From the NCBI GenBank assembly GCA_944358655.1, contig CALVRO010000015.1, positions 1 to 34,361 of the forward strand: a DNA stretch of 34,361 nt, in the 5' to 3' direction. The notes under the pieces were generated by a model. It had not been told where the DNA came from. It saw only the letters and a list, made by a program, of their open reading frames with translations, and ran no database searches. This document shows positions 67 through 34,361 of the stretch, piece by piece (within the stretch, counting starts at the first letter, position 1; every line of letters starts with the position of its first letter). A program made the translations under genes and the position numbers. This DNA is from an uncultured Clostridia bacterium (GTDB taxonomy: Bacteria; Bacillota; Clostridia; Christensenellales; Borkfalkiaceae).

Positions 67-129
67 CCACATTCGCTTGCCCGAAATGACACACTCTCCC
101 GTTGGGGGGGGTGCGCACCACAAGCGCAC

Positions 130-334
130 AATTTGCGTTAATTAAATTTCTTAACGTGCGCAAGGGGAATTCATTTCCCCGTTAAGCGCGCCACAATTTG
201 TTGCGTGAGCAACCTCAGCGGTGTGAATTGCCGCGATTAAATAATCGAGGGCTAAAACATATCGCGGCAAGAGAGGCAGAGCCTCTCAACTAACGGCAAG
301 TGGATGCCTTCGGCCAAGGCACCACTTGCGTTAA
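130..334 (-). repeat. Structured repeat, copy A (five hairpins)
   Basis: This fills most of the 334-nt gap between the leftward gene and cysS. Read on the minus strand it begins TTAACGCAAG at 334 and ends at TTAACGCAAATT (141-130). In order it shows: a long first hairpin closed by TAACG/CGTTA; a short GAGAGGC/GCCTCTC hairpin; a stem TTGCCGCGAT/ATCGCGGCAA (270-261 with 237-228) whose loop carries GCCCT and TTAT; CTGAGG, then a TTGC/GCAA hairpin, then AAATTGTG; and a GGGGAA/TTCCCC hairpin (180-175 with 169-164). The order and the unpaired motifs match copies B and C, but most stem sequences differ. A further partial unit may continue to 121. Confidence 0.8.
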
Positions 335-352
335 AATATAATAGGAGTTTTT

Positions 353-1747
353 ATGAGAATATACAACACACTTACAAGAACAAAGGAAGAATTCGTGCCG
401 CTGGAGGCGGGCAAGGTGAAGATGTACGCCTGCGGCATAACCGTTTCGGGCGAGGCGCACATAGGCCACGGCTTTCAGGCGCTGATATACGATATCATGC
501 GCAAATACCTTGAAAAGAAGGGGTACAAGGTCACCTACGCCCGCAACTATACCGACGTCGACGACAAGATAATCGCCCGCGCCAAGGAGGAGGGAGTGCC
601 CGCCGACGAGTACGCCGCAAAGATGATAGAGCGCATCGACGCCGTCATGCGCGAGATGGACATAGACGACCCCACGCTCTGGCTCAAGGCCACCCAAAAT
701 ATCGGCAACATTGAGGACTTCATCTCCGCGCTCATACAAAAGGGCCACGCATATGCCGCGCCCTCGGGCGACGTGTACTTCGACGTGTCCTCTTTCCCCG
801 GCTACGGGTGCCTTTCCAACCGCTCGGTCGAGGACATGCTCGACGGCGTGCGCGTGGAGAACGCCGAGGACAAGAAGAACCCCGCCGACTTCGCGTTGTG
901 GAAGGCGGCCAAGCCCGGCGAGATATGCTGGGATTCGCCGTGGGGCAAGGGCCGTCCCGGCTGGCACATAGAGTGCTCGGCCATGAACCGCGCCGCCTTC
1001 GGCGAGCAGATAGACATACACGGCGGCGGTAGGGATCTCATCTTCCCCCACCACGAAAACGAGATAGCCCAGACCGAGAGCCTGACGGGCAAGCGCTTTG
1101 TAAAGTACTGGACGCACAACGGCCTCATCAAGGTCAACGGGCAGAAGATGTCCAAGTCGCTGGGCAACTCCCTGCTTTTGGAAGATCTCTTAAAGAAATA
1201 CACCAACGAGGCCATCAAATTCGCGCTGCTGCAGACCAACTACCGCAACGACATAAACATAACCGACAGCCTCTTCCCCGAGGCTGAAAGGCACCTCACG
1301 TCCTTCTATAAAATTATTGGGCAGGTGGAGGACGCCTTCGGCAGGGGCTCCGAGGGCAACGCCGCCATCGACGCCCGCTTCGACGAGGCCATGGACGACG
1401 ACTTCAACACCGCGCTCGCCCTGTCCGAACTCTTTTCGGTGTTCAAGGGCATTTCGGCAAAGTGCGCGGCGGGCGACGCCTCGTGCGCAGACGACGTTTT
1501 GCAGGTCAGAAAGACATACTCGCTCCTCGGGCTCTTTAAAAAGGACGCGGCGGCCTACCTTGCCGAAGTGGCGGCAAAGGCCCCCGCCGAGGAAGTGCCC
1601 GCCCGTGTAGCCGCGCTCGCCGAACAGCGCTGGCAGGCCAAAAAGGCCAAAAACTGGGCCGAGGCCGACAGGCTGCGCGCCGAGATAGACGCCCTCGGCT
1701 ACGCCGTAAAGGACGGCAGGGAGGGCTACGCGGTGACAAAGAAGTGA
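353..1747 (+). CDS. cysS: Cysteinyl-tRNA synthetase
   Basis: This class I synthetase charges tRNA-Cys with cysteine in the cytoplasm. Its 464 residues match the usual family length. The HIGH motif is at residues 36-39 and KMSKS at 265-269 (GQKMSKSLGN). The zinc ligands typical of CysRS are present: C27 in YACGIT, C208 in WHIEC and the histidine-rich stretch around residues 232-233 (FPHHENE). The start is set by AGGAG at 343-347, 5 nt before the ATG. No T-box leader is visible upstream; that space is taken by the structured repeat. A TATAAT at 337-342 overlaps the ribosome binding site and lacks a -35 box, so the true promoter is unclear. alaS follows from its own promoter. Confidence 0.97.
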   Translation: MRIYNTLTRTKEEFVPLEAGKVKMYACGITVSGEAHIGHGFQALIYDIMRKYLEKKGYKVTYARNYTDVDDKIIARAKEEGVPADEYAAKMIERIDAVMREMDIDDPTLWLKATQNIGNIEDFISALIQKGHAYAAPSGDVYFDVSSFPGYGCLSNRSVEDMLDGVRVENAEDKKNPADFALWKAAKPGEICWDSPWGKGRPGWHIECSAMNRAAFGEQIDIHGGGRDLIFPHHENEIAQTESLTGKRFVKYWTHNGLIKVNGQKMSKSLGNSLLLEDLLKKYTNEAIKFALLQTNYRNDINITDSLFPEAERHLTSFYKIIGQVEDAFGRGSEGNAAIDARFDEAMDDDFNTALALSELFSVFKGISAKCAAGDASCADDVLQVRKTYSLLGLFKKDAAAYLAEVAAKAPAEEVPARVAALAEQRWQAKKAKNWAEADRLRAEIDALGYAVKDGREGYAVTKK

Positions 1748-1842: not shown

Positions 1843-3645
1843 ATGAAAGAATTGACAAGCCAAAGTTTAAGAAGTTTATACCTCGATTTCTTTAAGGAGA
1901 GGGGGCACGCCGTCATACCTTCGGCCTCCCTCATACCCGAAAACGACCCCACCGTGCTCTTCACCACGGCGGGCATGCATCCCCTCGTGCCCTATCTTCT
2001 GGGCGAAAAGCACCCCGCGGGCAACAGGCTGACCGACGTGCAGAAGTGCGTGCGCACGGGCGATATCGACGAGGTGGGCGACGCCTCGCACTGCACCTTC
2101 TTCGAGATGCTGGGCAACTGGTCGCTCGGCGACTACTTCAAGGAGCAGATGATCCCCTGGTCGTTCGAATTCCTCACCTCGCCCGACTACCTCGGCATAC
2201 CCGTGGAGGACATAGCCGTCACCTGCTTTGCGGGCGACGACGACTGCCCGCGCGACGACGAGAGCGCCAACAAGTGGATAGAGTGCGGCATAGACCCCAA
2301 ACACGTCTTTTTCCTGCCCAAGAGCGGCAACTGGTGGGGCCCCGCCGGCACCACCGGCCCCTGCGGCCCCGACACCGAAATGCACATAATCCGCAACCAT
2401 GCCGAGGCGGACAAGCTGGGCCCCTACGACTTCGACAAGGCCCCCGCAGGCACCTTTCTCGAGATATGGAACGACGTGTTCATGCAGTACAACAAGACGG
2501 CCGAGGGAAAATTCGAGCCGCTCAAACAGCGCAATGTGGATACGGGCATGGGCCTCGAGCGCACGCTGTGCATACTCAACGGCAAGGACAGCGTGTACGA
2601 AACGGATATCTTCGAGGGCGCGATAGCCAAAATAGAGCAGCTCACGGGGCTCGGGTACGGACAGAGCGAGGAGGTGACGAGGGCCTTCCGCGTCGTTTTA
2701 GATCACGTCCGCACGGCCACGTTCATGCTGGGCGACACGAAGGGCATAGTGCCCTCCAACACCGACCAAGGGTACATTTTAAGAAGGATAATCCGCCGCG
2801 CCGTGCGCTTCGGCAGGGGCATAGGCCTGCCCCAGGGCGCGCTCAACGAGGTCTCCAAGACAATAATAGCAAAGTACGCCGACGTATATCCCGAGCTCGC
2901 GGCCAACGCCGCCAAGATAGAGGAGGAGCTGAACAGGGAGGAGGCCAAATTCTCCAAGACGCTCGCGCAGGGACTCAAGGAGTTCGAAAAGGTGGCTGCT
3001 TCCAAGTCGGCGGGCGATAAAATAGACGGCGTCACCACCTTCCACCTGTACGACACCTACGGCTTCCCCGTGGAGATAACGCAGGAGATGGCGCGCGAAA
3101 AGGGCCTCGGCGTCGACGTAGAGGGCTACAACGCCGCCTTTGCCGAGCATCAGGCCAAGTCGCGCGCGGGCAGCGAGCAGAAGTTCGCCTGCGGCCTCGC
3201 CGACCACAAGGAGGAGACCACCAAGCTCCACACCGCCACCCACCTTCTGCACGCCGCGCTAAAGCGCGTGTGCGGCGACGACGTCAACCAGAAGGGCTCC
3301 AACATAACCGAGGAGCGCCTGCGCTTCGACTTCAACTTCCCCCGCAAGCTCACCCCCGAGGAGGTCAGGGCGGTGGAGGATCTCGTCAACGGCGAAATAG
3401 CCAAGGACGAGCCCGTGGTCATGAAGGAGATGTCGCTCGACGAGGCCAAGGCCGAAGGCTTTACGGGCCTGTTCGAGAGCAAGTACGGCGAAAAGGTAAA
3501 AACCTACACGATAGGCGACTTCTCCAAGGAGATTTGCGGCGGCCCCCACGTTGAGCGCACGGGCGTTCTGGGCACCTTTAAAATTGCCAAGCAGGAAAAC
3601 GTTTCGGCGGGCGTAAAGAGGATAAAGGCCGTACTCGTAAAATAA
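1843..3645 (+). CDS. alaS: Compact alanyl-tRNA synthetase without DHHA1/C-Ala domain
   Basis: This class II synthetase charges tRNA-Ala. The catalytic core is recognisable (CTFFEMLGNWSLGDYFKEQ near residues 85-105 as motif 2; GMGLERTLCIL as motif 3). The editing domain follows with its metal-site signature: H463 and H467 in HTATHLLH, C565 and H569 in CGGPHV. The protein ends about 30 residues later at GVKRIKAVLVK. At 600 residues it is some 270 shorter than the usual bacterial enzyme, because the oligomerising DHHA1/C-Ala region is absent. The downstream DNA shows a hairpin and promoter, not a decayed continuation, so this looks like a natural short form. Similar compact AlaRS proteins are, to my knowledge, common in candidate-phyla-radiation bacteria. 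Whether a full-length copy exists elsewhere cannot be seen here. Confidence 0.9.
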   Translation: MKELTSQSLRSLYLDFFKERGHAVIPSASLIPENDPTVLFTTAGMHPLVPYLLGEKHPAGNRLTDVQKCVRTGDIDEVGDASHCTFFEMLGNWSLGDYFKEQMIPWSFEFLTSPDYLGIPVEDIAVTCFAGDDDCPRDDESANKWIECGIDPKHVFFLPKSGNWWGPAGTTGPCGPDTEMHIIRNHAEADKLGPYDFDKAPAGTFLEIWNDVFMQYNKTAEGKFEPLKQRNVDTGMGLERTLCILNGKDSVYETDIFEGAIAKIEQLTGLGYGQSEEVTRAFRVVLDHVRTATFMLGDTKGIVPSNTDQGYILRRIIRRAVRFGRGIGLPQGALNEVSKTIIAKYADVYPELAANAAKIEEELNREEAKFSKTLAQGLKEFEKVAASKSAGDKIDGVTTFHLYDTYGFPVEITQEMAREKGLGVDVEGYNAAFAEHQAKSRAGSEQKFACGLADHKEETTKLHTATHLLHAALKRVCGDDVNQKGSNITEERLRFDFNFPRKLTPEEVRAVEDLVNGEIAKDEPVVMKEMSLDEAKAEGFTGLFESKYGEKVKTYTIGDFSKEICGGPHVERTGVLGTFKIAKQENVSAGVKRIKAVLVK

Positions 3646-8618: not shown

Positions 8619-8756
8619 GTCGTTTCGGCGCCGCAAGGCGCGTTTTGCAACAAGCCGAGTATAACTCGGCTTGCCCGCTTTTAGCGCCTGCGGCTCCTCT
8701 TTCGCGCAAATACTAAGCTAAAGCGCGAGGCTGTGGTGAAAGAGTATCTGAAACGT

Positions 8757-8979
8757 AATCGGGGAGATTTCTCCGTTTCGCTCGTTTCACTCGCTTCAGT
8801 CGAAATGACATGCTCTGCCCGAGGGGAGGGGCTGCGCGCCCATACCTACCCCATTGTCATGCCGAGCAGCGCGCCGAAAGAGTTGGGAAAAGACCGAGCG
8901 TGAGCGCGCGTTGCCGAGGCATCTCGTCGCAACAGCGACGGACAAACGTGGCAACGCCACGCCATGGCTCCCCGTCATT
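8757..8979 (+). repeat. Composite repeat block 1, left part
   Basis: It begins with a GGGGAGATTTCTCC to GTCGAAATGACA module (8763-8812). A module starting GTCATGCCGAGCAGCGCGCC at 8857 follows and runs through GCAACAGCGACGGACAA to GGCTCCCCGTC. The second module recurs at about 32748-32852. No convincing gene lies between pfp and the small minus-strand ORF at 9654. Confidence 0.75.
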
Positions 8980-9261
8980 ATACCAAACGGGAGTAATGCG
9001 AACCCGCCATTAAATGCGTCTTTTGTGCGCCTTGTCGCTCTTCCTCATTGCAATGCGAGTGGGCATTGCTGCTTCGTCATCGCGCCAATTCATCCCAAAA
9101 TACGCTATTTAAGGGTGCGCAGCAATTTAAAGCGGGCAGATCGTTTCAGATACAAGGCAAAGCCCGCAGGTAATAGCGCCCCCTATTACCAAGGGCTTTA
9201 ACGCAGTAGATGGGGCGATATGCCCGCTTTAAATCGGGTTCGTTTTATTCTCGTTTGGTAT
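8980..9261. mobile_element. MITE-like element with 27-bp inverted termini
   Basis: Left end 8980-9006 starts ATACCAAACGGGAG; right end 9235-9261 is its inverted copy with 23 of 27 positions matching. The 282-bp interior has no gene but holds a strong hairpin at 9159-9199 (AAAGCCC/GGGCTTT enclosing GGTAATAG/CTATTACC). The element interrupts the composite repeat that is continuous near 32840-32890. TA dinucleotides flank CCAAAC and GTTTGG, which would fit a TA target duplication. A partial copy lies at 18819-18905. Confidence 0.7.
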
Positions 9262-9515
9262 TTGAAGCTGGCGGCAATTTATTGCCGACTGAGGGGGCGT
9301 TTTTCTTTTTTTCGACCTCTCCGCCCGCGCGTTCACCGCGCGGGCACCTCCCCATACGAAGGGGAGGCTATATTGCGGTAAAAGTGTATCTGAAGCGGTG
9401 TCGGGGAGATTTCTCCGCTACGTTCGCTTGCGCTCACTCGGTCGAAATGACATCCTTATAGTCGGGGGGGATTTTTCGGCTGCGAATGCTAAAGCATTGT
9501 CGAAATGACGGGGAA
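9262..9515 (+). repeat. Composite repeat block 1, right part
   Basis: This resumes the block broken by the MITE: GGCAATTTATTGCCGACTGAGGGGGCG, CGACCTCTCC, a CCCGCGCG/CGCGCGGG hairpin region, CCATACGAAGGGGAGGC, GTATCTGAAGCG, then a GGGGAGATTTCTCC to TCGAAATGACA module (9402-9451) and a shorter one ending near 9510. The same order recurs at 32870-33062. Confidence 0.75.
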
Positions 9516-9561
9516 AGGGGGAGGCGCGCGGCCATTCGGCCGCGCGCCTCCCCGTGTTGAG

Positions 9562-9623
9562 GTGTCATTTCGACCGAAGAGAGGAGGGCCATCTGCCCGA
9601 CGAGCGGAGCGGAGAAATCTCAT
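9562..9623 (-). repeat. TCGAAATGACA module, inverted copy
   Basis: TGTCATTTCGACCGAAGAGAGG through GCGGAGAAATCTCATGGG is the reverse orientation of the modules at 8763 and 9402. It is nearly identical to the copy at 32640-32702. Confidence 0.75.
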
Positions 9624-9653
9624 GGGTTATCTTCCGTAAACGATATTTCCGCA

Positions 9654-26110: not shown

Positions 26111-26165
26111 AGAACAGCTCAAACGCAACCCCCGCCTTCAGACCGCGCCCCGACTCCCCCGGTAG

Positions 26166-26245
26166 GGCATGTCATTTCGACTGTAGCACACGAAGTGTGC
26201 GAAACGGAGAAATCTCCCCGGTGTCGCTTCAGATACACTTATTCC
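26166..26245 (-). repeat. TCGAAATGACA module between lepA and the MGMT gene
   Basis: TGTCATTTCGACTG, a CACACGAAGTGTG hairpin and GGAGAAATCTCCCC form a reverse-oriented copy of the dispersed module. GTGTCGCTTCAGATACAC follows, matching the GTATCTGAAGCG tail seen at 9381 and 32982. Confidence 0.75.
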
Positions 26246-26289
26246 CCATTTTTCACGCCGCAACGGGGCGGCGTTGACCCTTGATCGTT

Positions 26290-30820: not shown

Positions 30821-32353
30821 ATGCAACACCAAAGAGTATTGATTCTCGATTTCGGCGGGCAGTACAACCAGCTGATCGCGCGCAGGGTGAGGGAGCTCAA
30901 CGTATTCTGCGACCTCATGCCCTCGGACATGACCTTAAGCGAGATAAAGGAGTACGACCCCATAGGCATCATCTTCACGGGCGGCCCCAACAGCGTCTAC
31001 GACGACGGCTCGCCCAAGGTGGACGCGGGCGTGTTCTCGCTCGGCGTGCCCGTTCTCGGCATATGCTACGGCTGTCAGCTGATGGCGCACCTTCTGGGCG
31101 GCGTAGTCGAGAGGGCTACTACCTCCGAATACGGCAAGGCGGAGGTGGACTATGTGTCCTCCCGTCTGACCGTCGACATGCCCTCTTCGGCGGTGTGCTG
31201 GATGAGTCATACCGACAGGATAACCCGCCTGCCCGAAGGCTTTAAAATGCTTGCCAAGAGCGATAACTGCCCCTACGCCGCGTTCGGCGACGAGGACAGA
31301 AAGCTCTACGGCGTGCAGTTCCACCCCGAAGTCAACCACACCTTCAAGGGCAGCGTAATACTCAAAAACTTCCTCTACAATATCTGCGGCGCCAAGGGCG
31401 ACTGGACTATGTCCAACTTCGTCGCCAACCAGATAGCCGCGCTCAGGGCCAAGATAGGCGATAAAAAGGTGCTGTGCGCCATGTCGGGCGGGGTGGACTC
31501 GGCCGTCGCGGCCACGCTCATCCACAGGGCGGTGGGCGACAACCTCACCTGCGTGTTCGTCGACCACGGACTTTTAAGAAAGTACGAGGCCGAAGAGGTG
31601 ATGAAGGTGTTCAAGGGCGACCTCGGCATGAACCTTATAAAGGCCGACGACGGCGACGTCTTTTTGCGCAGGCTCGAAGGCGTGACCGACCCCGAAACCA
31701 AGCGCAAGATAATAGGCGAGCAGTTCATCCGCTCGTTCGAAAAGCAGGCAAAGGCCATAGGCAAGGTAGATTTCCTCGTTCAGGGCACCATATATCCCGA
31801 CGTTATCGAAAGCGGCAAGGGCAAGAGCGCCGTTATCAAGTCACACCACAACGTTGGCGGCCTGCCCTCGGTGGTCGACTTCAAGGAGATAGTCGAGCCC
31901 CTGCGCGACCTGTTCAAGGATGAGGTCAGAAAGGTGGGCTTCGAGCTGGGACTGCCCAAGAGCGTGGTAATGCGCCAGCCCTTCCCCGGGCCGGGTCTCG
32001 CCATACGCATAATGGGCGAAGTGACGAGGGAAAAGCTTGAAACGCTGCGCGATTCCGACTACATCCTGCGCGACGAGATAGCCAAGTCCGGCCTCGACGA
32101 CAAGATATGGCAGTACTTCACCGTCATCACCAATTCCAAGACGGTGGGCGTGCAGGGCGACTTCCGCACCTACGAAAACGTGGTGGCCATCCGCGCCGTC
32201 ACCTCTGTCGACGCCATGACGGCCGACTGGGCGCGCATCCCCTACGACGTGCTCGAAAGGGTGTCCAACCGCATCGTCAACGAGGTCAGGCACGTCAACA
32301 GGATAGTGTATGATATAACCTCCAAACCCCCCGCAACGATAGAATGGGAATGA
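30821..32353 (+). CDS. guaA: GMP synthase (glutamine-hydrolysing)
   Basis: This enzyme converts XMP to GMP with ATP and glutamine. The N-terminal class I glutaminase has the nucleophile Cys82 in GICYGCQ (the family usually has GICYGMQ) and the His168/Glu170 pair in FHPEV. The ATP pyrophosphatase domain has SGGVDS at 222-227, followed by [32 protein letters not shown] and the dimerisation tail ending TIEWE. At 510 residues it is full length. AAAAGGAAAG precedes the ATG. A structured repeat starts 9 nt after the stop, and a glutaminase-less paralogue follows 830 nt downstream. Confidence 0.97.
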
Positions 32354-32361
32354 CAAATTTG

Positions 32362-32563
32362 TTAACGCAAATTGTGCGCTTGGGGCGCGCACCAATTTGC
32401 CGTTATTTGAGGGCGCTGCCCTCAGCGGCGCAATCTTAGGTGCCCTACAGTTATAAAATTGCGCCGCTTTCACCTGCTGAGGCGCAAGTATGCGCAAATT
32501 GTGTTGTGCTGCGCGAAAGCGTGGTTTCGCTTGCACCGATAATTAAAGAAATTAACGCAAATT
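32362..32563 (+). repeat. Structured repeat, copy B
   Basis: Begins 9 nt after the guaA stop. It has the same order as copies A and C: first hairpin CAAATT-GTGCGC/GCGCACCAATTTG closed by TAACG/CGTTA; GAGGGC/GCCCTC; stem AGCGGCGCAAT/ATTGCGCCGCT (32424-32434 with 32458-32468) with loop motif GCCCTACAGTTAT; CTGAGG, CGCA/TGCG hairpin, AAATTGTG; then GTGC with an inner GCGAAA/TTTCGC (32513-32518 with 32525-32530) and GCAC; ending with a second TTAACGCAAATT. Confidence 0.85.
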
Positions 32564-32570
32564 TCGCCTA

Positions 32571-33104
32571 CGCTCGAAATGACTTGCTCTGTACGGGTGC
32601 GGTGATAGCGCTTGCCTGAAATGATATAAAAAAATACGGAGTGTCATTTCGACCGAAGAGAGGAGGGCCTTCTGCCCGACGAACGGAGCGGAGAAATCTC
32701 ACGGGGAGAGAAATCAAACTTGTAAACAATCTTTTCTTCACCCCTTTGTCATGCTGAGCAGCGCGCCAAAATAGTTTGAGTATGACCAAGCGCGAACGCG
32801 CGTTGCGACAGCAACGGACAAGCAGGGCGAAATTCGCCCGTAATGGCTCCCCGTCGCTATGGGGAGCTGTCGGCAACTTGTTGCCGACTGAGGGGGCGTT
32901 ATTTCCTTTCGACCTCTCCGTCTGCACGCTCTCGCGCGCAGCCACCTCTCCATACGAAGGAGAGGCAATATTGCGGTTAGATGGTATCTGAAGCGTAGCC
33001 GAGGAGATTTCTCCGTGCGGCGTCCGTGCGGAGGCACGGCCGCCTTAGTCGAAATGACATTCCTCTTTTCGGGGAGATTTCTCGGCTTCGCTCGAAATGA
33101 CAGG
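32571..33104. repeat. Composite repeat block 2
   Basis: No gene is seen between copy B and the second guaA. The block contains a CTCGAAATGAC end (32572), an inverted TGTCATTTCGACC to GAGAAATCTC module (32640-32702), the GTCATGCTGAGCAGCGCGCC module (from 32748), GGCTCCCCGTC, CAACTTGTTGCCGACTGAGGGGGCG, CGACCTCTCC through CCATACGAAGGAGAGGC, GTATCTGAAGCG, and two GAGATTTCTC to TCGAAATGACA modules (33002-33060, 33080-33102). The order repeats block 1 without the MITE. Confidence 0.78.
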
Positions 33105-33183
33105 AAGAGAGACGGCGCGTGCCTGCATGCCGCAAAGGGCTGCGGTCGCGGACGAACTTAAAAATATCAAGGAGAAAAACAGC

Positions 33184-34167
33184 ATGTCAAACAATATAAG
33201 ACCCGAAAGTCTTGCACGCATAACCACCAAGGAGGCGGCCGATGCCTTCATAAATGAGCAGATAGCCGAAGTGCGCGCTCAGGTCGGCGGCAAAAAGGTG
33301 TTGCTCGCCCTCTCGGGCGGAGTTGATTCCTCCGTCGTCGCCGCCCTCCTCATCAAGGCCATAGGCAAGCAGCTCGTCTGCGTGCACGTCAACCACGGCC
33401 TTCTGCGTCAGGGCGAGCCCGAACAGGTAGTTTCGGTATTCCGCGACGAGCTGGACGCCAATCTTATCTATGTCGACGCCACCGATCGCTTCCTCGGCAA
33501 GCTTGCCGGCGTGGCCGATCCCGAAACAAAGCGCAAGATAATCGGCGCCGAATTCATCGAAGTGTTTAAGGAGGAGGCCCTCAAGCTCGAGGGCATTAAG
33601 TTCCTCGCACAGGGCACAATCTATCCCGACATAATCGAGAGCGAAAAGGGCGTCAAGGCCCATCACAACGTCGGCGGTCTGCCCGAACAGCTCGGCTTCG
33701 AGCTCGTAGAACCCCTCAAGTTTTTGTATAAGGACGAAGTGCGCGTTGTGGGCGAAGCCCTCGGTCTGCCCGCAAACATGGTCTACCGCCAGCCCTTCCC
33801 CGGCCCCGGTCTGGGCGTAAGGTGCCTCGGCGCCATAACCCGCGACAGGCTGGAGTGCGTGCGCAAGTCGGACGCCATCCTTCGCGAAGAGTTTGCCAAA
33901 AACGGCCTCGAAGGAAAGGTTTGGCAGTACTTCACCGTTGTGCCCGATTTCAAGTCGGTGGGCGTAAAGGACGGCAAGCGCACCTTTGCGTGGCCAGTGA
34001 TCATCCGCGCCGTAAACACCAAGGACGCCATGACGGCCACCGTGGAGGACATTCCCTTCGCCCTGCTCGAGCACATCACCGCCCGCATCACCGCCGAGGT
34101 AGAGGGCGTAAACAGAGTGCTTTATGATCTCACCCCCAAGCCCGTCGGGACTATTGAGTGGGAATGA
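33184..34167 (+). CDS. GMP synthase ATP-pyrophosphatase subunit, no glutaminase domain
   Basis: 327 residues equal to the synthetase half of GuaA. SGGVDS is at 44-49, followed by [45 protein letters not shown] and a tail ending TIEWE. No glutaminase precedes it. I chose ATG at 33184, with AAGGAG 9-10 nt upstream. It differs a good deal from the C-terminal half of the full-length GuaA upstream (for example [13 protein letters not shown] versus [13 protein letters not shown]), so it is not a recent internal duplication. It should make GMP with free ammonia or a separate glutaminase, like the two-subunit archaeal enzyme. No clear promoter is seen; CCGCA/TGCGG forms a small hairpin in the leader. 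Confidence 0.9.
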   Translation: MSNNIRPESLARITTKEAADAFINEQIAEVRAQVGGKKVLLALSGGVDSSVVAALLIKAIGKQLVCVHVNHGLLRQGEPEQVVSVFRDELDANLIYVDATDRFLGKLAGVADPETKRKIIGAEFIEVFKEEALKLEGIKFLAQGTIYPDIIESEKGVKAHHNVGGLPEQLGFELVEPLKFLYKDEVRVVGEALGLPANMVYRQPFPGPGLGVRCLGAITRDRLECVRKSDAILREEFAKNGLEGKVWQYFTVVPDFKSVGVKDGKRTFAWPVIIRAVNTKDAMTATVEDIPFALLEHITARITAEVEGVNRVLYDLTPKPVGTIEWE

Positions 34168-34174
34168 GAGAGTT

Positions 34175-34361
34175 TTAACGCAAATTGGTGCGCTTGGGGC
34201 GCGCACCAATTTGCCGTTATTTAAGGGCGCTGCCCTCGCGGGCGCAATCTTTATATCGCCCTACAGTTATAAAATTGCGCCCGCTTCACCTGCTGAGGCG
34301 CAAGTATGCGCAAATTGTGTTGTGCTGCGCGAAAGCGTGGTTTCGCTTGCACCGATAATTA
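34175..34361 (+). repeat. Structured repeat, copy C (runs off the window)
   Basis: Starts 7 nt after the second guaA. First hairpin: perfect CAAATTGGTGCGC/GCGCACCAATTTG (34181-34193 with 34201-34213) closed by TAACG/CGTTA. Third stem: GCGGGCGCAAT/ATTGCGCCCGC (34238-34248 with 34274-34284), changed on both sides relative to copy B. The rest is almost identical to copy B up to the window edge. Confidence 0.85.

Follow-up and report, generated by a model that had tools for sequence, protein, structure and literature searches.

Mosaic palindromic repeats in one family of gut Clostridia, apparently undescribed and probably reshuffled at the DNA level

Do paired changes in the stems of a repeated element reveal selection on an RNA fold, or can they come about when hairpins are exchanged as DNA? 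This question is raised by a 34,361-nucleotide (nt) stretch of DNA from an uncultured Clostridia bacterium, here called the window, which is the entire contig C15 (CALVRO010000015.1) of a 92.6% complete draft genome (66 contigs, 1.85 Mb). An initial annotation, made from the letters of the window alone, described three copies of an element with five hairpins, took the two-sided changes in its stems as the mark of selection on a fold, and proposed a mobile noncoding RNA (ncRNA), a ribozyme-like element or a single-stranded DNA substrate of a transposase encoded elsewhere. All three copies lie in the window at the positions described, each with its five hairpins (Table 1), and the quoted stem changes are in the sequence. 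We consider it probable, at roughly 0.58, that these copies belong to a new family of interspersed repeats, palindromic and mosaic in a manner similar to BOX and BIME, whose members are reshuffled at the DNA level.

A widespread five-hairpin repeat with covarying stems

The unit is about 190 bp long. Hairpin 1 carries a bulged C near its base (a C in 91 of 103 copies), hairpin 2 directly abuts hairpin 3, the loop of hairpin 3 reads GCCC...TTAT, and hairpin 4 is flanked by unpaired GCTGAG and AAATTG strands, after which come hairpin 5 and an AT-rich tail. By eye, the left end (TTAACG/TTCAC) and the AT-rich right end do not seem to be inverted repeats of each other. Units occur singly, in head-to-tail arrays (e.g., L338) or, in a second genus, as pairs arranged tail to tail. 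At several loci of genus g335 (L359, L368, L370, L374 and L376), the right ends of two such units overlap by about 6 bases.

A blastn search with unit 2 of the window yielded 33 matches in its own genome, and a covariance model (R1), built from an alignment of 11 units of that genome (A1), yielded 28, compared with the three copies first seen. Model R1 matches 54 of the 61 genomes of the genus at E ≤ 1e-4; the counts per genome are lower bounds, and six genomes have at least 42 matches each. Across the family, 48 of 151 genomes matched, and they represent 5 of 18 genera. A search of the class matched 4 of 391 genomes, all four belonging to the same family, and a sample of the order matched 15 of 248 genomes at E ≤ 1e-3, with 14 within the family and one marginal. 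This last match (G141, L093; E = 8e-4, GC content 0.72) looks like a chance match within coding DNA. Among the genomes searched, and bar this marginal match, the sequences indicate a repeat confined to one family of gut Clostridia.

No match to Rfam release 15 was found in the window at the gathering score, and relaxed thresholds over positions 32100-34361 gave two chance-level matches only (E = 4.7 and 5). Viral contigs held no exact match to a 26-nt core, a strict pattern that divergent copies would escape, and no description of such a repeat in the genus was found in the open-licence literature. The earlier statement that no family with this plan is known thus stands with respect to Rfam, but mosaic palindromic repeats such as BIME and BOX are a known kind. 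The repeat is real, and apparently represents an undescribed family, a family-wide class of mosaic palindromic repeats.

Three larger alignments were used to evaluate the stems. Alignment A2 contains 109 copies, taken from the window and from 80 of at least 114 stretches that exactly match a core around hairpin 4, so conservation near hairpin 4 is partly built in. Alignment A3 contains 80 matches (77 distinct), mostly the best-scoring matches to the model plus 11 loci from the core scan, and overlaps A2; alignment A4 contains 62 copies, mostly those with the best model scores, from the second genus and from three further genomes of the first. All three were fitted to R1 and lean towards its structure, which shuffled and slid controls made on the same alignments offset only partly. 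In A2, 96.4% of cells pair and all 44 pairs exhibit two-sided change, with 1098 cells carrying two-sided and 56 one-sided change; the corresponding values for RNase P RNA from 28 genomes are 375 and 107. The covariation score of A2 is 0.564, a value that 0 of 500 shuffles reach, versus 0.160 when shuffled and no more than 0.095 when the pairings are slid. Two-sided change likewise affects 44 of 44 pairs in A4, where the score is 0.710, versus 0.173 when shuffled and at most 0.108 when slid. Copy number and covariation together exclude chance, and the main observation of the initial annotation is correct and stronger than it could appear from three copies.

A fold that acts at the RNA level tolerates G-U pairs but not A-C pairs. 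Alignment A2 has G-U in 82 and A-C in 59 of 4445 cells, and A4 has 57 and 32, respectively, with 7 versus 19 in its hairpins 3-5. The same counts are 267 and 16 of 2967 cells for RNase P RNA from 28 genomes of the genus, and 37 and 0 of 495 cells for transfer RNAs (tRNAs) from the loci. The RNase P control covers 28 of the 29 genomes with a match (a partial one was excluded), and the structure used for it is a prediction made from that same alignment, a procedure that favours standard pairs, G-U among them; 26 tRNAs were found, and those running off an end (two on recount) were excluded. Three pairs, in hairpin 1 (21), hairpin 2 (19) and the base of hairpin 5 (15), contribute 55 of the 82 G-U cells of A2. 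Because G-U on one strand is A-C on the other, near equality of the two fits pairing that is strand-symmetric, as in DNA, or copied in blocks. The covariation of the element, which lacks the clear wobble bias of RNA and accompanies new combinations of whole hairpins, points to DNA. Of the proposed mark of selection on a fold, the two-sided changes hold, as does a lower variation of stems than of unpaired positions, but selection on an RNA fold as the reading of the stem changes is not supported. The sequences likewise appear to lend no support to a ribozyme or a free ncRNA, in favour of which nothing was found. The repeat may be a DNA substrate of an enzyme encoded elsewhere.

Combinations of hairpins and turnover of sites

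Each of the five positions draws on a pool of hairpins, which occur in many combinations across the copies listed per genome. Linkage was expressed as adjusted mutual information in the genome of the window (25 copies), in G082 (31) and in G061 (21). The two arms of one hairpin reach 0.69-1.00, and hairpins 3 and 4 reach -0.05, 0.16 and 0.16 in these three genomes. Linkage between neighbouring hairpins is partial, not nil, and this, together with the matched arms, makes hairpins seem to be exchanged as units. Individual loci carry visible mosaics. An array in G084 (L347) consists of four units, namely A, B, an A-like unit and a cut unit, the last of which joins hairpin 1 of A (the type in the first and third units of the array) to hairpins 2-3 of B (its second unit), with one base changed in hairpin 2. 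G082 and G061 share an orthologous site at which hairpins 3-5 are nearly identical, as is a second, convergent element. There, the tip of hairpin 1 as well as hairpin 2 are replaced, and hairpin 2 of one copy contains about 119 nt of inserted sequence.

Nested structured inserts of about 100-190 nt, which are themselves repeated in the genomes, interrupt hairpin 2 or hairpin 4 or separate hairpin 4 from hairpin 5 (L143:4786-5094, L171:5117-5423 and L009:1011-1671).

Comparison of orthologous loci with and without the element, among the pairs listed and with few examined closely, revealed both filled and empty sites. A full element follows 3 of the 29 readable 3' ends of the gene that we take to be guaA in the genus, and pieces follow two others (L232 and L239); for two of the 29, the contig breaks off after about 115 nt. 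One spacer, presumably rpsP-khpA, is empty in the species of L181 and filled in that of L197. Three orthologous copies (L131/L143, L010/L053 and L181/L197) are 98.4-99.3% identical over the aligned part, while their left flanks are 82-92% identical. The eight point differences examined in them, swapped or deleted parts left aside, all fall at unpaired positions, and L197 lacks 47 nt of hairpins 2-3. Most other orthologous pairs among those listed are about 68-88% alike, and their sequences suggest that they are rebuilt.

Along the whole spacer of L181:3337-5020 and its counterpart in L197, which we take to be ffh-rpsP, identity is 98-100% per 60-nt step, the AT-rich part included, and 75-95% in the coding flanks. 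Identical copies on two contigs of G064 were considered as a sign of movement and set aside, as they belong to the same duplicated stretch, flanks included.

Many intergenic copies with hairpin modules in varied combination, and sites filled in some relatives and empty in others, are the hallmarks of mosaic repeats, and both are found here. We propose that the pairing is maintained at the DNA level, with complementary arms copied and exchanged as one block, which might be a cruciform, a single-strand hairpin or a short gene-conversion tract bounded by the shared unpaired motifs. If arms move as one block, both would change together with no wobble intermediates. An effect on mRNAs that contain the element is possible, though probably secondary. 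A more specific form of this proposal, which we hold only tentatively, is that the units are DNA hairpin cassettes, with five ordered slots filled from pools of well-paired hairpins by folded-block exchange, and that structure-directed recombination, perhaps carried out by the host or by an enzyme, is what positions the left end beside translated regions as well.

Genomic placement and competing explanations

Copies occupy intergenic spacers, flanked for the most part by co-directional genes, as judged with a crude gene caller on which all placement counts depend. The left end lies -4 to 12 nt from a called gene edge in 51 of 98 copies in A2, 35 of 71 in A3 and 14 of 49 (29%) in A4, and the right end does so in 5 of 94, 4 of 67 and 2 of 55, respectively. 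At this edge the left end meets either a stop codon or the ribosome-binding site that belongs to a gene directed away from it. Orientation was counted for copies with the left end at most 30 nt from an edge and both neighbours called. Between co-directional genes, sense and antisense copies number 28 and 12 in A2, 15 and 11 in A3, and 15 and 1 in A4; a further 7, 8 and 3 copies lie between convergent genes and 3, 5 and 4 between divergent genes. Since orientation is mixed in two sets and nearly all sense in A4, it does not settle the RNA question. At one spacer, presumably smc-ftsY, related species carry the element in opposite orientations (L176 versus L071 and L076), with the left end at the gene edge each time. 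By eye, no convincing -35/-10 pair for a promoter towards the left gene was found within the element.

In the 60 nt past the right end, 16 of 148 copies repeat their own first 14 bases, and 21 repeat solely the first bases of another copy; in a stretch further downstream, which is not present for all copies, one copy repeats its own. Copies are also found at contig breaks, and the window itself ends within one.

Several observations weigh against reshuffling at the DNA level. In eight pairs of close copies, some of which share rows (one copy is in three pairs), 15 differences fall in 703 paired columns versus 62 in 815 unpaired columns; the 11 pair events comprise four Watson-Crick changes on both sides, one G-U, three A-C and three others. 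The smaller number of stem changes and the 98-99% identity of the three orthologous copies suggest that some copies serve the host. One pair beside the bulge of hairpin 1 is often U-G in A4, and a sense bias such as that of A4 would result from an RNA role. Linkage of the two arms partly follows from pairing itself, and linkage between neighbours is high in places, with adjusted mutual information (same order of genomes) of -0.03, 0.54 and 1.00 for hairpins 1-2, 0.59, 0.45 and 0.09 for hairpins 2-3, and 0.42, 0.23 and -0.13 for hairpins 4-5, and with p < 0.05 in 7 of 12 tests. Block exchange is a step that we infer. No new insertion within a species was seen, and no transposase or recombinase could be tied to the repeat in searches that covered Y1 and RVT_1 but not other transposase families.

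These points bear on the competing explanations. Under one of them, the repeat is a cis-acting mRNA element whose hairpins, once transcribed, shield one end (3' or 5') of the adjacent message or govern the proportions of genes in an operon, and selection keeps the RNA fold. Left ends at stop codons or ribosome-binding sites speak for it, as do the co-directional neighbours of 40 of 50 copies in A2, 26 of 39 in A3 and 16 of 23 in A4, the 15-to-1 excess of sense copies in A4, stems less variable than loops in the eight close pairs, three orthologous copies far more similar than their coding flanks, and conserved unpaired motifs (near hairpin 4 of A2, partly an effect of how that set was collected). 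We nevertheless find this explanation doubtful, given that G-U is barely preferred over A-C, that antisense copies make up 12 of 40 (A2) and 11 of 26 (A3) between co-directional genes, that orientation varies among related species at one spacer, and that 26 of 29 guaA 3' ends in the genus are without a full element. Slightly easier to entertain, though still improbable, is a non-autonomous transposon, either a miniature inverted-repeat transposable element or REP-like, that is moved via single-stranded hairpins by a transposase encoded elsewhere in the cell. Site polymorphism, the placed left end, the arrays and the recurrence of the first 14 bases just past the right end (16 of 148 copies) agree with such an element. 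However, Y1 (IS200-type) transposase is present in 18 of 61 genomes of the genus and was not found in 11 of the 14 drafts with at least 25 copies, that of the window included, RVT_1 reverse transcriptase, present in 25 of 61, was likewise seen in no more than three of these 14 drafts, which may have gaps, and no target duplication was noticed at the few sites examined by eye.

Paired changes could also be a mutational product that needs no selection, if template switching at imperfect palindromes copies arm onto arm. Template switching is reported from bacteria (PMC7202029), and paired transversions are seen between similar hairpin types. This process should invert loops, but only one inversion was seen (hairpin 5, L332) and none in hairpins 1, 2 and 4; two inversions called in the loop of hairpin 3 (L138 and L336) are loci that were each matched on both strands. 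Template switching would also tend to remove the C bulge from hairpin 1, although most copies keep it, and leaves the new whole-hairpin combinations unexplained, which makes it an unlikely account. A set of intrinsic transcription terminators is less likely still. A GC-rich hairpin does lie a few nt past stop codons, where some relatives have ordinary-looking terminators, but there is no T tract (a run of five T residues follows hairpin 1 within 12 nt in 4 of 109 copies), the usual site is between co-directional genes, and numerous copies immediately precede a ribosome-binding site.

The boxes of an integron attC site read GTTRRRY/RYYYAAC. An attC site was considered and rejected by eye, as the repeat shares with these boxes AAC/GTT alone, in place of which many copies have CAC/GTG; no integrase search was made.

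The window copies, known repeats and implications

Table 1. Repeat units and neighbouring genes in the window
Feature	Coordinates	Strand	Basis or remark
Partial next unit directly after unit 1 (left part, other hairpin 1 type)	111-141	-	sequence; blastn match 110-141
Unit 1, complete	142-334	-	left end 334; model R1, 182 bits
Unit 1 hairpin 1	334-291	-	
Unit 1 hairpin 2	about 287-272	-	
Unit 1 hairpin 3	271-227	-	
Unit 1 TCACACCGCTGAG	226-214	-	
Unit 1 hairpin 4	213-200	-	
Unit 1 AAATTGTGGC	199-190	-	
Unit 1 hairpin 5	189-158	-	
Unit 1 AT-rich tail	157-142	-	
cysS (cysteinyl-tRNA synthetase)	353-1747	+	open reading frame (ORF) list, sequence
guaA (GMP synthase), 510 amino acids	30821-32353	+	ORF list; matches in 37 of 41 genomes of the genus
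Unit 2, complete	32362-32551	+	model R1, 206 bits
Unit 2 hairpin 1	32362-32405	+	
Unit 2 hairpin 2	32409-32423	+	
Unit 2 hairpin 3	32424-32468	+	
Unit 2 TTCACCTGCTGAG	32469-32481	+	
Unit 2 hairpin 4	32482-32495	+	
Unit 2 AAATTGTGTT	32496-32505	+	
Unit 2 hairpin 5	32506-32536	+	
Unit 2 tail	32537-32551	+	
TTAACGCAAATT, 12-nt repeat of unit 2's own first 12 bases, after unit 2	32552-32563	+	sequence
GMP-synthase-like ORF without glutaminase half	33097-34167	+	ORF list; 57% identity to guaA query residues 199-510
Unit 3, tail cut by contig end	34175-34361	+	model R1, 198 bits
Unit 3 hairpin 1	34175-34219	+	
Unit 3 hairpin 2	about 34223-34237	+	
Unit 3 hairpin 3	34238-34284	+	
Unit 3 hairpin 4	34298-34311	+	
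Unit 3 hairpin 5	34322-34352	+	

Two of the three units adjoin 3' ends of genes. Unit 2 starts 8 nt past the stop codon of guaA, and unit 3 starts 7 nt past that of the GMP-synthase-like ORF; the two elements are 95% alike and the two gene ends 68%. Unit 1, antisense to cysS, has its left end 18 nt upstream of the start codon of that gene, beside the ribosome-binding site (the names guaA and cysS are presumed from the protein sequences). In unit 3, the outermost pair of hairpin 2 is mismatched (AAGGGC/GCCCTC). When folded as single copies, 32362-32563 is moderately stable (z -2.2) and 130-334 strongly so (z -6.4).

The GMP-synthase-like ORF that lacks the glutaminase half, which follows guaA in the window, is also found in G001 and G030. 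The alaS-like ORF at 1843-3645 has 600 codons only, and presumably is without the usual C-terminal domain. Further interspersed repeats are present in the window at 8732-9626, 26144-26248 and 32641-33027, some directly behind unit 2; their types are TGTCATTTCGA...GAGAAATCTC and a CCTCCCC...GGGGAGG hairpin. Behind guaA in several species there is a different repeat, GCGCCCTCGGTCATTTAC...GTGTAAACTCCCGTCGG...CTCGCGC (L231:3034-3200).

Among known systems, BOX of Streptococcus pneumoniae, which is built as boxA-boxB(n)-boxC, is nearest in kind to the repeat. Compared with BOX, the repeat has five positions of exchangeable hairpins and a left end that is often at gene edges, and the two are set apart by description only. 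REP and BIME elements often lie shortly past stop codons and have a stem with a mismatch or bulge. In contrast to REP/BIME with RAYT, the repeat consists of 190-bp units with five hairpins, and Y1 was not found in most copy-rich genomes. The hairpin elements of mitochondrial DNA are palindromic and, to our knowledge, spread with no known enzyme of their own; they belong to organelle genomes and have fewer hairpins than the repeat, so that the likeness is by description only. As described in the literature, BOX elements are small, extensively structured repeats that are restricted to one group of species and held to be parasitic and slow to move (PMC3049150), REP/BIME elements are palindromic repeats in mosaic arrays (PMC2817692), and mitochondrial DNA carries double-hairpin and repetitive hairpin-forming elements (PMC2800124, PMC2670323). 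The accessible text on YPAL/RU-2 of Yersinia (PMC2229807) describes an element of 168 bp with internal inverted repeats, no terminal TA and no A+T richness, which has empty and filled sites, makes target duplications of 3-26 bp and is said to be co-translated with upstream genes. The repeat resembles YPAL/RU-2, as portrayed there, in size and internal repeats but differs in that no target duplication was noticed; shuffled hairpins are not mentioned there for YPAL/RU-2.

Two-sided stem changes are commonly taken as proof of a functional RNA, and this repeat is possibly a warning case for the covariation-based discovery of ncRNAs in metagenomes. It also offers a natural experiment on the spread of palindromic repeats, with many genomes, up to dozens of copies in each, and both filled and empty sites. 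If the hairpins are indeed cassettes, palindromes would evolve across a whole bacterial family by the swapping of folded DNA, and not by point mutation.

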